Positions 36,808-41,827 of a DNA stretch of 64,000 nt are shown here, in pieces. The notes beneath the pieces are model-generated. The model ran no database searches and was not told where the DNA came from. It was given only the letters and a program-made list of their open reading frames with translations. Source of the stretch: Candidatus Sulfuritelmatomonas gaucii. Its GTDB lineage: Bacteria > Acidobacteriota > Terriglobia > Terriglobales > Acidobacteriaceae. Numbering within the stretch: position 1 is the first letter of the stretch; every line of letters begins with the position of its first letter. The translations under genes and the position numbers were made by a program. The DNA is taken from the NCBI GenBank assembly GCA_900290245.1, contig OKRB01000013.1:109099-173098 (forward strand), read 5' to 3'.

Positions 36808-37521
36808 CTACGCCGTCAGCCGCTCGAGTTGCTCGGGCTTGACGATGGTCAGGCTGGTGCCCTTGATCGTGATCCATTGGTCGCGGCGGAATTGGTTGAG
36901 GAGCCGCGTCACCGTCTCGCGCGAGGTGCCGGCCATGTTGGCGATCTCCTCGTGCGTCAGCGCCATGGTAAAGCGGATCTCCGGCTTGCCGTTGGAAGCA
37001 CCGCGTCCCCAATCCAGCAGCAGCCGTGCCAGCCGCCCCGCCGCAGAGCCGGAGAGAGCCAGCCGCTTGGCGTCGTGAAACACCGTGAGGTATTCGCCCG
37101 ACAGCGCCTGCGCCGCATGCATTGACGCAATCCCATGGCGTCCCAGGAATTCGACGAACTCCTGTTTCCGTACGGTCTTTACCTGGCAGGGCTCAATAGC
37201 TTCAGCGGTCACCTCGTGCGGCACATTGGCCAGCACGGCGCTCAGTCCCATCACATCGCCGGGACCGGCAATCTTCAGGATCATGGTTTTGCCGTCGCGC
37301 GAGGTGGAAGAGATCTTGACCTGGCCAAAGCAGATGACAAACACGTTGCGCGCGGGATCGCCTTCGGAAAAAAGCTTGGCGCCGCGGGCATGGCTCATCA
37401 TGATCCCAATCTGGTCGTAATCAGCCAGGGCCTCCGACGTGAGATTGCAGAACATCCGCAGATGCCGGTGCTCGCAATTGAGGCAATCTTCCGGAGGGTG
37501 ATGGGAATGGAGTGCGGCCAT
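36808..37521 (-). CDS. CRP/FNR-family regulator with N-terminal Cys cluster
   Basis: A 237-residue regulator. N-terminal CLNC plus a later FC (C-x2-C-x7-C, about 14-25) resembles the Fe-S ligand set of FNR, with a further Cys near residue 58. The cNMP-fold domain follows; its phosphate-binding cassette lacks the RSA of cAMP-binding CRP. The HTH (about 187-212, LTHEEIANMAGTSRETVTRL) has Arg-Glu-x-x-x-Arg, exactly the CRP recognition residues, so a TGTGA half-site is expected. A perfect TGTGA-N6-TCACA lies 1.9 kb away before the stress protein gene. Start ATG at 37521 is preferred over an ATG 51 nt upstream. Confidence 0.88.
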   Translation of the reverse strand: MAALHSHHPPEDCLNCEHRHLRMFCNLTSEALADYDQIGIMMSHARGAKLFSEGDPARNVFVICFGQVKISSTSRDGKTMILKIAGPGDVMGLSAVLANVPHEVTAEAIEPCQVKTVRKQEFVEFLGRHGIASMHAAQALSGEYLTVFHDAKRLALSGSAAGRLARLLLDWGRGASNGKPEIRFTMALTHEEIANMAGTSRETVTRLLNQFRRDQWITIKGTSLTIVKPEQLERLTA

Positions 37522-37653
37522 ACTTCTACCAGTGGGGCTAGACGTTAAGAAAAGTATAGCGCATATCCCCATTCCACATCGTGGGCCATCGCGATCTACC
37601 CGTTTTTCGGCCTGAAATGTCCCGATTCTCGAGGCAAAGCCGCGATCCTGCTC

Positions 37654-38160
37654 TTAATGCGCCCCATTGGTGCGTCGCCGCGCAGGTATTACGCGCGTCA
37701 GGCAGCAAGTGATATAGGCGCGAGAGACTTCGCGCGCCAGTTCCTCCAGAAGACGCATCCGCAGCGGCGGATAATTCACAAACGCCTGGTGCAGCGCCTC
37801 GACCGGCAGCAGCAGCAGCGATCCGCGAGTGACGGCGCTCAGAGTGTACGTGTGATGGCCGTCTCCCAGCGCGGCGGCCAGTTCAACCAGGTCTCCAGGT
37901 CGCGCCGTTCCAAGCGTCACACGCATTTCAAAGCGCTCCGCTTTGCGCGCAAAATCGCCCGATACCACGACATACAGCCCTTTGCACACGCCTTGCTGCC
38001 GGAAGACGACCTGTCCGGGGTCGAAGTCGATCGTCCGCGATGCGCCGGCAAGTAGCCCACCGGCTTCTTGTGGGCACTCCAGCAACTCGGCGAGGGGACG
38101 AGCCGCCACGTCGGCCAATCGAGTAAATCGCGATTCGGGTTGTACGCCCAGATTTTCCAT
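37654..38160 (-). CDS. cyclic-nucleotide-fold protein without HTH
   Basis: A 168-residue protein with one cNMP-binding beta roll (about 45-145, DFDPGQVVFRQQGVCKGLYVV and GDLVELAAALG). It ends in an Arg-rich helix (VIPARRRTNGAH) but no helix-turn-helix, so it cannot bind DNA in the usual way. A role as a regulator partner, or a decayed CRP relative, is plausible. It lies 132 bp upstream of the CRP/FNR gene on the same strand, and 242 bp downstream of the universal stress protein gene. Confidence 0.75.
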   Translation of the reverse strand: MENLGVQPESRFTRLADVAARPLAELLECPQEAGGLLAGASRTIDFDPGQVVFRQQGVCKGLYVVVSGDFARKAERFEMRVTLGTARPGDLVELAAALGDGHHTYTLSAVTRGSLLLLPVEALHQAFVNYPPLRMRLLEELAREVSRAYITCCLTRVIPARRRTNGAH

Positions 38161-38402: not shown

Positions 38403-39302
38403 TTACGAAGTGGCCACGGGAACGGCAATCTCCTGCTCCATTTCCGCGCGCGCCCCCTCCGGCGGTACGCAAAGAACTGGCACGCGCGAGGCAGACAGCA
38501 AAGCAAACGCGGTCCCATGCGGCCCCGGCGTCCCGCTGGCACGCTTGACGCCCGCAACCAGGATGCATGGATGGTTCTCCGCAATTGCTTCAGCAATAGC
38601 ATCGGCCGGACTGCCATCCTTCACCAGGCAATGCACCGGGGCGTTGCCCTGGAGCCGAATGCCAAAATCCTCAAGTTTACTGGAGCATGGATTCAACAAG
38701 GCGGAAACTTCGGCCGCAGTCCGCACATGCAATACCAGCAGCGGTCGATGGAATGTATCGGCGAGCGAATACGCCGTGGCCGCCGCTGCCGCTGCAGCTT
38801 CATTGCGTTCCATGGCCAGCAATACGGGTCCACCCGGCGTGGGCCGGTTTGGGCCGGCATTCCAATCCGCAGCCACGGCTAGCACGGGGCACGGTGCAAG
38901 CCGCACCAGTTGTTCGGCGATGGCGCCAACCACCACAGGTCCGACGCCTTCCATACCCTTGGTCCCAATGACGATCAGGCCGGCCTCGTACTGCCGCGCC
39001 ACATCCACCAGCATCTCCGCCACCGTTCCCTGACGAATCTCAGAGTGGCTGTGAATGCCCTCGCGCAACAGGTCGGCCGCCAGCGCGTCGAGCACTTTGC
39101 GCGCCGCTTCCGTCAAGTGGCTTGCCACGGCGCCCGGAAGGCCATCCACCGCGGCATACTCCATCGGATCGAGCCCGTGCGCCAGCACAATGCGCGCACC
39201 ATAGTTGGTCGCCAGCTTGCGGGCATATTCCAGAGCCGCATCCGCTTGGCCTTCGAGATCAGTTGCGACCACGATGGTCTTCAAACCGTTTTCAAAACCC
39301 AT
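38403..39302 (-). CDS. universal stress protein, two-domain
   Basis: A 299-residue tandem USP protein. The first domain (1-150) carries the ATP-binding loop with the pattern GTKGMEGVGPVVVGAIAEQL and the second (about 155-299) a related but degenerate loop (GVKRASGTPGPHG). Two-domain USPs act in the cytoplasm in stress or starvation; ATP binding is likely only in the first half. The gene is upstream of the cNMP-domain and CRP/FNR genes. A perfect CRP-type site lies 94 bp before the start, so regulation by the neighbouring regulator is a strong hypothesis. Confidence 0.9.
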   Translation of the reverse strand: MGFENGLKTIVVATDLEGQADAALEYARKLATNYGARIVLAHGLDPMEYAAVDGLPGAVASHLTEAARKVLDALAADLLREGIHSHSEIRQGTVAEMLVDVARQYEAGLIVIGTKGMEGVGPVVVGAIAEQLVRLAPCPVLAVAADWNAGPNRPTPGGPVLLAMERNEAAAAAAATAYSLADTFHRPLLVLHVRTAAEVSALLNPCSSKLEDFGIRLQGNAPVHCLVKDGSPADAIAEAIAENHPCILVAGVKRASGTPGPHGTAFALLSASRVPVLCVPPEGARAEMEQEIAVPVATS

Positions 39303-39682
39303 GGTTCGCCCTCACTGCAACGCTGCGCACAGTTCGTTGGATTTTGAGTGTGCGCCTTCAAATCAGGCTGGGCAGTGACACCATTCACCCCCTCATGTGA
39401 CTAAGGTCACAACGGGCAAAATCCTGATTCTGTTGGAGAACGCGGAGCCTCAAAACATGAGGCCTGGCCCGCAATGAACGGCCATTTCAAAAGGCTTCAA
39501 GGGTGCCCTGAGCCTCAAGGCTGCCCCGGTCCTGCTCTTTCTTCGAACCCACATTGTTGATGCCCCCCTTCGAGAATCGGAGCCAACCAGAGAGCCCGAA
39601 GGAGAGCACAAACCAGTGCGAACCTCGATGGTGCTTCCGGCCCTATACATCAGGCGGCCTGATGCGTTACCGTGGGCGCGTT
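39303..39682. other. 380-bp divergent intergenic region
   Basis: This gap separates the stress protein gene (minus) and the GH3 gene (plus). It holds the CRP-type site at 39396-39411 and a small GCCTCA/TGAGGC inverted repeat at 39447-39463. No further gene is apparent, and a weak TGGGCG ribosome site sits before the GH3 ATG. Confidence 0.5.
39396..39411 (-). promoter_or_regulatory. perfect CRP-type operator
   Basis: The sequence TGTGACTAAGGTCACA is a perfect TGTGA-N6-TCACA palindrome and fits the CRP consensus fully. It is centred about 101 bp before the start of the double universal stress protein. The CRP/FNR protein coded 1.9 kb downstream carries the matching R-E-x-x-x-R recognition helix. 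Confidence 0.8.
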
Positions 39683-41827
39683 ATGGAAAAGCAATTGAAA
39701 CGCTCTCTTTCTGCATTTGTTCTCGTCATTTTGGCCGCGGTTTCTTGCACCGGCATTGCGGCGGCCCAGGCTCCCGCGCCCGACTCGCCTGACATCGAAG
39801 CGCAAGCCCACGCCATGCTCGCCAAGCTGACCCTGGAACAGAAAATTGAACTGCTGAGCGGGATCGACAACATGTTCACCCGGCCCATGCCCGCCATCGA
39901 TCTTCCACGCTTCAAAATGTCCGACGCCTCGGTTGGCGTGCGAACCTGGGGCCCGACCACGGCCTACGCAGGCGGCGCGGCGCTGGCCGCCAGTTGGGAT
40001 CCCGAACTTGCGCGCAAGATCGGCGAGAGCCTCGGCCGCGATGCCCGCGCCCGCAATGTCAACTTCCTGCTCGGCCCCGGAGTCAATATCGCCCGCTCGC
40101 CACTCAATGGCCGCAACTTCGAATACCTCTCCGAAGATCCGTTCTTGAACTCGACCCTCGTGGTGCCGTTCATCGAAGGCGTGCAATCGCAGGGCGTCAT
40201 CGCCACGGTGAAGCACTACGCGCTCAACAACTCCGAGTTCAACCGGCACAACATCGATGCCGAAGTGGACGAGCGCACCATACGCGAAATCTATTTGCCG
40301 TCATTTGAGGCAGCCGTCACCGAAGGCCACGTGGATGCGGTCATGGACTCCTATAACCTCGTCAACGGAGTCCACTCCACGCAAAACGACTTCCTCAACC
40401 TGAAGGTGCTCAAGAGTGATTGGGGATTCCAGGGCGTGCTTATGTCCGACTGGGATGCAACGTATGACGGCGTCGCCGCCTGCAACAACGGGCTCGACCT
40501 CGAAATGCCCAGCCCTAAGTTCATGAACGCCAAAAATCTCCTTCCTGCCGTGCAGAGCGGCGCAGTCAAGGAATCGACGATCGACGAACACGTCCTGCGC
40601 CTGCTTCGCACCGAGCTGCGCTACGGCTTCACCACTCGTCCGCAGTTCGATCCCGCTGACTCCACCTACTCGGTTGCCGACCGCACTGTCGCGCTCCAAG
40701 GCGCTCTCGAAAGCATCACTCTCCTCAAGAATCAGGATCATCTCCTTCCGCTCGATCCGGCGAAAGTGAAAAACATCGCCGTCATCGGCCCCGACGCATA
40801 TCCGGCAGTCACCGGCGGCGGCGGCTCGTCTGAGGCTCATGCCTTCGAGCCGGTCAGTATTCTCACCGGCATCGCCAACCTGCATGGCCCCGACGCGCAT
40901 GTCTTCTACAGCCCCGGCATGCCCGAAGATCCCGCTGAAAAGAAGGCCGTCGAACAGGCCGATGTTGTCTTCGTGGCAGTTGGCTTCAATCCCAAAACCG
41001 AGAGCGAAGGTCGCGACCGAACTTTCACTCTGCCGCCCGGTCAGGACGCGCTCATCGAAGCAGCCGCGGCAGCCAATTCGCACACCATCGTGCTTCTCAC
41101 CGCGGGCGGCGGTGTCGACACCAGCCGCTGGCTCGATAAAGTTCCCGCTTTTATGCTGCTCTACTACCCGGGACAGGAAGGCGGCACCGCCGTCGCGCAA
41201 ATCCTCTTCGGCCAGCACGACCCCGAGGGCAAATTGCCCGTCTCGTTTGATCGCAGTTGGGAATCGAATCCGTCAGCGAAGTGGTACTACGGCGACCCCA
41301 AGGACAATACGACCCTTCACACCACCGGCGAAAATGACCAGCCCAAGGACTACACGATTGAGCATGTGAAATATGGTGACAAGCTCATGGTCGGGTATCG
41401 CTACTGGACCACAAGCGGCAAGCACCCGCTGTTTCCGTTCGGCTTCGGTCTCAGCTACACCACGTTCCGTTTCTCAAATTTGCAGGCGCCGTCTTTGGCG
41501 ACGAAAGGCACAATCGACCCGAAAGGCATCGCAGTTAGCTTCGACGTCACCAACACCGGCACCGTTGCCGGGGCCGAGGTGGCCCAGCTCTATGTCTCCG
41601 ATCCCTCCGCGCAGGTCGATCGCCCCGAACGCGAATTGAAAGGATTCGAAAAGTTGCAGCTTGCGCCCGGCGAAACCCGGCACGTCACGCTCTCGCTCGA
41701 CGCGCGCGCCTTCAGCTACTGGGATGAGCCCGCGCACAAATGGATCATCGATCCCGGCAAGTTCGTCATTCGTGTCGGCGACTCCAGCGAGCACACGCCG
41801 CTCGATGCTGCTATCGACCTGCGCTGA
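39683..41827 (+). CDS. GH3-family beta-glucosidase
   Basis: A 714-residue secreted glycoside hydrolase of family 3. A signal peptide (about 4-28, IAAAQA) precedes the TIM barrel, which carries the nucleophile in VLMSDWDATYD (about 250-260). The second alpha-beta domain has GKLPVSFDRSWE; the third is a fibronectin-III-like domain with the C-terminal YVSDPSAQVDRPERELKGF. The likely substrate is beta-glucosides or xylo-oligosaccharides. It is followed 44 bp later by the SGNH hydrolase gene on the same strand. The ATG at 39683 gives a proper signal peptide; an in-frame ATG 129 nt upstream would not. Confidence 0.9.
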   Translation: MEKQLKRSLSAFVLVILAAVSCTGIAAAQAPAPDSPDIEAQAHAMLAKLTLEQKIELLSGIDNMFTRPMPAIDLPRFKMSDASVGVRTWGPTTAYAGGAALAASWDPELARKIGESLGRDARARNVNFLLGPGVNIARSPLNGRNFEYLSEDPFLNSTLVVPFIEGVQSQGVIATVKHYALNNSEFNRHNIDAEVDERTIREIYLPSFEAAVTEGHVDAVMDSYNLVNGVHSTQNDFLNLKVLKSDWGFQGVLMSDWDATYDGVAACNNGLDLEMPSPKFMNAKNLLPAVQSGAVKESTIDEHVLRLLRTELRYGFTTRPQFDPADSTYSVADRTVALQGALESITLLKNQDHLLPLDPAKVKNIAVIGPDAYPAVTGGGGSSEAHAFEPVSILTGIANLHGPDAHVFYSPGMPEDPAEKKAVEQADVVFVAVGFNPKTESEGRDRTFTLPPGQDALIEAAAAANSHTIVLLTAGGGVDTSRWLDKVPAFMLLYYPGQEGGTAVAQILFGQHDPEGKLPVSFDRSWESNPSAKWYYGDPKDNTTLHTTGENDQPKDYTIEHVKYGDKLMVGYRYWTTSGKHPLFPFGFGLSYTTFRFSNLQAPSLATKGTIDPKGIAVSFDVTNTGTVAGAEVAQLYVSDPSAQVDRPERELKGFEKLQLAPGETRHVTLSLDARAFSYWDEPAHKWIIDPGKFVIRVGDSSEHTPLDAAIDLR

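Follow-up and report, generated by a model that had tools for sequence, protein, structure and literature searches.

The window analysed here, a stretch of 64,000 nucleotides from Candidatus Sulfuritelmatomonas gaucii, carries on its minus strand a cluster of three genes. The first (38403–39302, start codon ATG at 39302) encodes a tandem-type universal stress protein (USP) with two Usp domains (Pfam Usp, 1.2e-32, two stretches); the best NCBIfam match of its product was UspE, far under the cut-off. It is followed by a gene for a 168-aa cNMP-fold protein without HTH (37654–38160, Pfam cNMP_binding only) and by a gene for a CRP/FNR-family regulator of 237 aa (36808–37521, Pfam HTH_Crp_2 and cNMP_binding); the first in-frame start of the latter gene is at 37572 and would add 17 residues. 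The intergenic gaps are 242 and 132 bp. A scan found no terminator-like site on the same strand within the cluster; an operon of the three genes, with co-transcription, is therefore plausible. On the plus strand a divergent gene encodes a GH3 glycoside hydrolase (39683–41827). Homologous loci were found in Acidobacteriaceae, among them Occallatibacter savannae AB23, Terracidiphilus sp. and many MAGs.

An exact TGTGA-N6-TCACA, which the preliminary description had reported before the double USP gene, is indeed present at 39396–39411 on the minus strand (site 1, TGTGACCTTAGTCACA read toward the USP gene), 93 bp from the USP ATG. This 16-mer is the sole match in the window, even at one mismatch. 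With up to one mismatch allowed, dinucleotide shuffles of the window gave a mean of 1.10 matches; a single window therefore cannot settle the site and conservation has to decide. We fetched 77 homologous named loci and dropped 15 where the USP gene was missing or cut. In all 62 informative loci the site lies no more than 250 bp from the USP start; 45 of these sites are exact, 16 carry one mismatch and one carries two, while the best of 29 permuted half-site palindromes reached only four loci at up to one mismatch. Genomes of the genus contain 20 orthologous loci, 19 of them with the USP gene, and the site lies upstream in 19/19 (14 exact, five with one mismatch); the 77 named loci overlap these genomes, hence the two counts are not independent. 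Judged by this conservation, site 1 is a genuine operator under selection before the USP gene.

The site is one of a pair whose second copy had been overlooked. We stacked 63 promoters (the 62 informative loci and the window) without gaps and observed a second block, GGTGA-N6-TCACT, beginning 22 bp after the first. In the window this is site 2 (39374–39389, minus strand, GGTGAATGGTGTCACT), centred 22 bp downstream of site 1. At exactly +22 the core GTGA-N6-TCAC is exact in 53/63 promoters and has one mismatch in 8/63; it has two mismatches in locus L142 and is absent at this offset in L136. From the stacked promoters, the USP operator is a tandem of two sites 22 bp apart, with site 1 as the upstream member.

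Further downstream a hexamer CACACT (39347–39352, minus strand) may serve as a −10 element. CAGACT-like hexamers are located 59–60 bp from the start of site 1 in 57/63 promoters; if they are the −10 element, the centres would fall close to −42 (site 2) and −64 (site 1), a predicted layout of class II plus class I. In a scan for sigma-70-like promoters none reached the threshold. Conservation of the CRP base contacts extends widely through the family, unlike that of E. coli AR1 (PMC12531629), so that the class I contact here may differ from that of E. coli. One promoter, L136, offers a natural deletion test: one operator copy has apparently been lost, and the remaining single site lies 37 bp from CAGACT, about the usual place of site 2 and thus at class II distance.

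Outside the genus we fetched 16 related regulators, four of which have a nearby USP match; two of these four also have two sites. In one genome of another genus (G179, regulator 57% identical), TGTGATCCTCGTCACA and GGTGACTCGAATCACC are located 22 bp apart between the regulator and USP genes. In the other (G187, also of another genus), a 60%-identical regulator follows USP and the two sites are 29 bp apart.

The consensus of Rex, TTGTGAA-N4-TTCACAA, overlaps TGTGA-N6-TCACA, and the half-sites of Rex and site 1 thus overlap as well. A Rex site needs an inner A and T, whereas site 1 has C/T and A/G at these positions in 63/63 promoters; the operator TGTGAA-N4-TTCACA was rejected on these inner bases. 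That Rex is reported to share sites with the CRP/FNR-family protein HcpR1 in Desulfovibrio (PMC5701242) speaks for Rex as the owner of the site, an assignment that we nevertheless regard as highly improbable.

The linked regulator belongs to the CRP/FNR superfamily by the agreement of its domains (PF00027 and PF13545), its AlphaFold2 model and its PDB matches. We aligned it to E. coli FNR and CRP. Its residues R201, E202 and R206 correspond to R180, E181 and R185, the base contacts of E. coli CRP (PMC12531629), and the Arg-Glu-x-x-x-Arg recognition helix noted earlier is thus borne out. Among relatives with an HTH this motif is kept in 54/55 (RER in 54, RET in one); 3/58 relatives are without HTH. 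TGTGA-N6-TCACA is also the operator consensus of E. coli CRP (PMC5701242); thus both base contacts and consensus are the same as here. The two proteins differ elsewhere: the regulator is without the Arg-Ser of the cAMP pocket, and it has an N-terminal Cys extension absent from E. coli CRP. H102 and E103 occupy the positions of CRP R83 and S84 (numbering with Met), in accord with the earlier remark that the pocket RSA is missing.

These replaced pocket residues argue against a cAMP-dependent CRP circuit, in which the exact consensus would be an ordinary catabolite-control site, perhaps serving the divergent GH3 gene as well. No class III cyclase (PF00211, the one cyclase class searched for) was found in the organism's own genome, which is 94% complete. 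In favour of a cAMP circuit, pairwise sequence comparison places GlxR and Mtb CRP first among the PDB matches of the regulator, and the GH3 glycosidase is divergent from the site in 41/62 site-keeping loci; still, 21/62 keep the site with no GH3 match, 20 of them with at least 1 kb of sequence on that side. On this count the GH3 gene was set aside as a neighbour that is probably not the main target. Taken with its points on both sides, we consider the cAMP circuit very unlikely.

FNR binds TTGAT, has V208 at the first contact of the recognition helix and holds its oxygen-labile [4Fe-4S] cluster on C20, C23, C29 and C122. In the alignment C13 and C16 of the regulator match FNR C20 and C23; R22 stands at the position of C29, with C25 three residues further, and K115 at that of C122, while C64 falls at FNR R72. 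The FNR-like N-terminal Cys cluster of the preliminary description is therefore real, but its spacing is CX2CX8C and not the CX2CX5C of FNR, and the candidate fourth ligand is C64. E202 and R206 match FNR E209 and R213, and R201 stands in place of V208. With C29, C122 and V208 unmatched, the aligned sequence does not qualify as FNR proper. A likeness exists at the level of gene neighbourhood: fnr adjoins uspE in E. coli, as the regulator gene here lies in a cluster with a USP gene.

Among 58 relatives, C64 tracks the pair C13 and C16 without exception (present in the 51 with both, absent in the seven without). C13, C16, C64, R201, E202 and R206 are invariant in a 46-member alignment; the 46 were drawn from the 58 with most members lacking the motif omitted, and the invariance of the Cys is partly due to this selection. 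C112 is also conserved, in 69/70 orthologues though not among paralogues, and the four-Cys ligand set is accordingly a candidate one. The AlphaFold2 model (pLDDT 88.4) has as its best fold match A. fischeri holo-FNR (residues 10–237, 225 residues, Z 26.1), tied with GlxR (Z 25.6). When the first 80 residues alone were searched against the PDB, none of the 21 matches was an FNR.

The four Cys could instead bind Zn or act as a thiol (disulfide) switch, responding to oxidants or metal and not to O2 via Fe-S. The CX2CX8C spacing, unlike that of FNR, and the fourth Cys located elsewhere would fit such a site. Set against this are the two of three N-terminal Cys that align with FNR C20 and C23, the top position of holo-FNR in the fold list (Cys loop included, the tie with GlxR notwithstanding) and three order-level relatives (L059–L061) that combine an FNR-like CX2CX5C with the same Cys64 and R-E-x-x-x-R. 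A Zn or thiol sensor is possible but, on balance, rather unlikely; an Fe-S cluster on Cys13, Cys16, Cys25 and Cys64 appears to be the better prediction.

A genome scan for TGTGA-N6-TCACA, proposed earlier as a check, gave a clear excess of the correct spacing. The 25 genus genomes contain 245 N6 sites versus 147 sites for N7–N10 together (∼37 per wrong spacing). The reversed TGTGA pattern had 17 matches in the same genomes; this control flatters the enrichment and the spacing control was preferred. Two counts weigh against the reading that we favour below. Family f2, which is without a regulator orthologue, still has an N6 excess, with 18 sites against 15 for the four wrong spacings combined. 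TTGAT-N4-ATCAA boxes number 90 in the 25 genomes; their reversed-pattern control (90 versus 5) was left unused as poor, because it contains TAG.

Our survey of neighbours covered 52 site loci in six genomes, comprising every one of the 12 in the organism's own genome and a subset of 40 of those in G004, G005, G009, G013 and G017. Among the matches listed, ccmF (cytochrome-c assembly) adjoins the site in at least four genomes (G000, G009, G013 and G017), and other two-domain USPs do so in G005, G009, G013 and G017. In G000 and G013 the neighbour is a CXXCH protein (L010 and L181, CSGCHTTP) without a Pfam match; it has two CRP-type sites, 26 bp apart in both genomes. Single-case neighbours among the matches listed were ATP synthase b, a proton-antiporter subunit, an Fe-S protein and FeoA; some of these will be chance. 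The match at icd in G004 (L188) includes a ribosome-site-like run AGGAGG just before the start, is probably chance and was rejected as a target. Autoregulation at the regulator's own start was also rejected, as there is no conserved upstream block and an exact site is present in only 5/69. The idea of a local stress circuit remains plausible, with the site beside the linked regulator gene, but the circuit would not be only local, since ccmF, other USPs and the CXXCH protein carry sites too.

The ccmF site was found at up to one mismatch in 20/20 informative genomes (14/14 of a first set, 6/6 of a second); uninformative were G006, cut by a contig end, and G022 and G024, with no ccmF match. Permuted palindromes reached at most 1/16. 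Two of the 20 genomes, G016 and G017, have no regulator match; in G016 the CNB gene (for the HTH-less cNMP protein) starts at a contig end and in G017 the tandem USP promoter lies at one. G005 and G021 have neither a regulator orthologue nor a CNB orthologue. At ccmF the best match in G021 has two mismatches, whereas that in G005, TGTGCTTCCCCTCACA, has one, which falls on an A kept in 20/20. From these sequences we read the site as lost in both genomes, arguably so in G005, and the joint loss with the regulator is therefore not a clean one.

At ccmF the site could act in either direction. A −10-like nAnAnT is located 37–38 bp from the site start in 19/20 ccmF promoters (nAGAnT in 15), which is the spacing of the CAGACT-like hexamers after site 2 in USP promoters (57/63), while TAnnAT is located 26–27 bp from the site in 18/20. 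As a −10 element TAnnAT would imply repression and nAnAnT a class II position.

Assignment of the sites to the linked regulator is a prediction, because the organism's own genome encodes three other HTH proteins with RExxxR (L013, L020 and L023). The tandem could be a genuine CRP-type operator whose main binder is one of these paralogue types, or which several of them share. The motif is (S/T)RETVTR in the L020 and L023 types and VRELISR in L013; a site lies ∼220 bp 5′ of an L023-type match in G017 (L175), another in G005 (L174) separates USP from a four-Cys regulator of 37% identity, and a few sites are kept in order-level relatives without the regulator orthologue. Yet the orthologue accompanies the USP-upstream site in 19/19 genus loci with USP, and orthologue, two sites and USP occur together in two other genera. 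Also, neither orthologue-less genome retains an unbroken site at ccmF even though G005 keeps the four-Cys paralogue, a comparison of two genomes only, possibly related, in which the G005 case hangs on one base. We regard a paralogue as the main binder as rather improbable, and take the linked regulator as the predicted reader of the sites.

The HTH-less cNMP protein has an orthologue in 22/25 genus genomes. A C-terminal helix-like motif, LLEELAREVSRaY, is conserved among 68 HTH-less cNMP sequences, which end 20–31 residues past the conserved REVS (56 in L107); no HTH was found past this motif in the sequences compared. In two genomes of another genus (G161 and G113) 172-aa HTH-less proteins retaining all four Cys are encoded directly after a full-length regulator (L206:1858–2373 and L208:2368–2883). 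An exact TGTGA-N6-TCACA is located between two tandem HTH-less cNMP-fold genes in L002 (G000:C32, 965–2014); by eye, the organism's own genome has five similar short proteins. Four large proteins of ∼460–525 aa (L027–L030) have a cNMP domain followed by what by eye resembles a histidine kinase. A general placement of sites beside HTH-less cNMP genes was rejected: 3/12 exact sites in the own genome have it, but 0/40 scanned loci in five other genomes. It is a speculation that the HTH-less partner modulates the regulator or heterodimerizes with it.

Among the closest described parallels is HcpR1 of Desulfovibrio desulfuricans (PMC5701242). The binding site of this CRP/FNR-family protein is TGTGA-N6-TCACA, its recognition helix carries R, E and R (positions 1, 2 and 6), and it is a proposed class 3 (two-site) activator; NO and not cAMP is its reported signal, haem binding is reported, and nap and the operon of HcpR1 itself are among the targets. 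Compared by description only, HcpR1 shares the operator consensus, the R-E-x-x-x-R helix and the two-site arrangement with the system predicted here; it differs in its reported haem binding, where the present regulator has a conserved four-Cys set, with USP and ccmF as likely targets.

As a whole, we find it reasonably likely that the tandem operator in the promoter of the USP, HTH-less cNMP and CRP/FNR genes is bound by the linked, FNR-like Fe-S regulator with CRP-type reading, which activates USP and respiratory genes; the linked protein as binder, activation, the Fe-S cluster and the signal are all predictions. The regulator would read TGTGA half-sites in a CRP-like manner via R201, E202 and R206, occupy both copies and activate transcription from about −42 (class II) and −64. 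It would be independent of cAMP, would most likely hold its cluster on the four Cys, and would switch with oxygen or redox state to induce USPs together with respiratory genes, ccmF among them. A bolder picture, which we offer only tentatively, is of an Acidobacteriota branch of Fe-S CRP/FNR proteins in which Cys64 of the beta-roll has become the fourth ligand and which does the job of FNR on CRP sites, tuned by the HTH-less cNMP protein (and, in another genus, by HTH-less four-Cys partners) through a C-helix heterodimer.

Neither a regulon study of an Acidobacteriota CRP/FNR protein nor a description of the Cys64-containing four-Cys set together with CRP-type reading and a USP promoter was among the literature matches listed, the search having mostly lain outside the subscription literature. 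The separate parts have precedent (the HcpR1 consensus, the fnr-uspE neighbourhood). The findings suggest that within the CRP/FNR family the kind of sensor is not tied to the kind of operator, for which HcpR1 is already an example; it is therefore unsafe to infer control by cAMP merely from a TGTGA-N6-TCACA sequence. The regulator is also a candidate for a natural alternative ligand arrangement of an FNR-like cluster, and the locus yields directly testable elements: the operator with its predicted regulator, the promoter layout and a set of recurrent targets.
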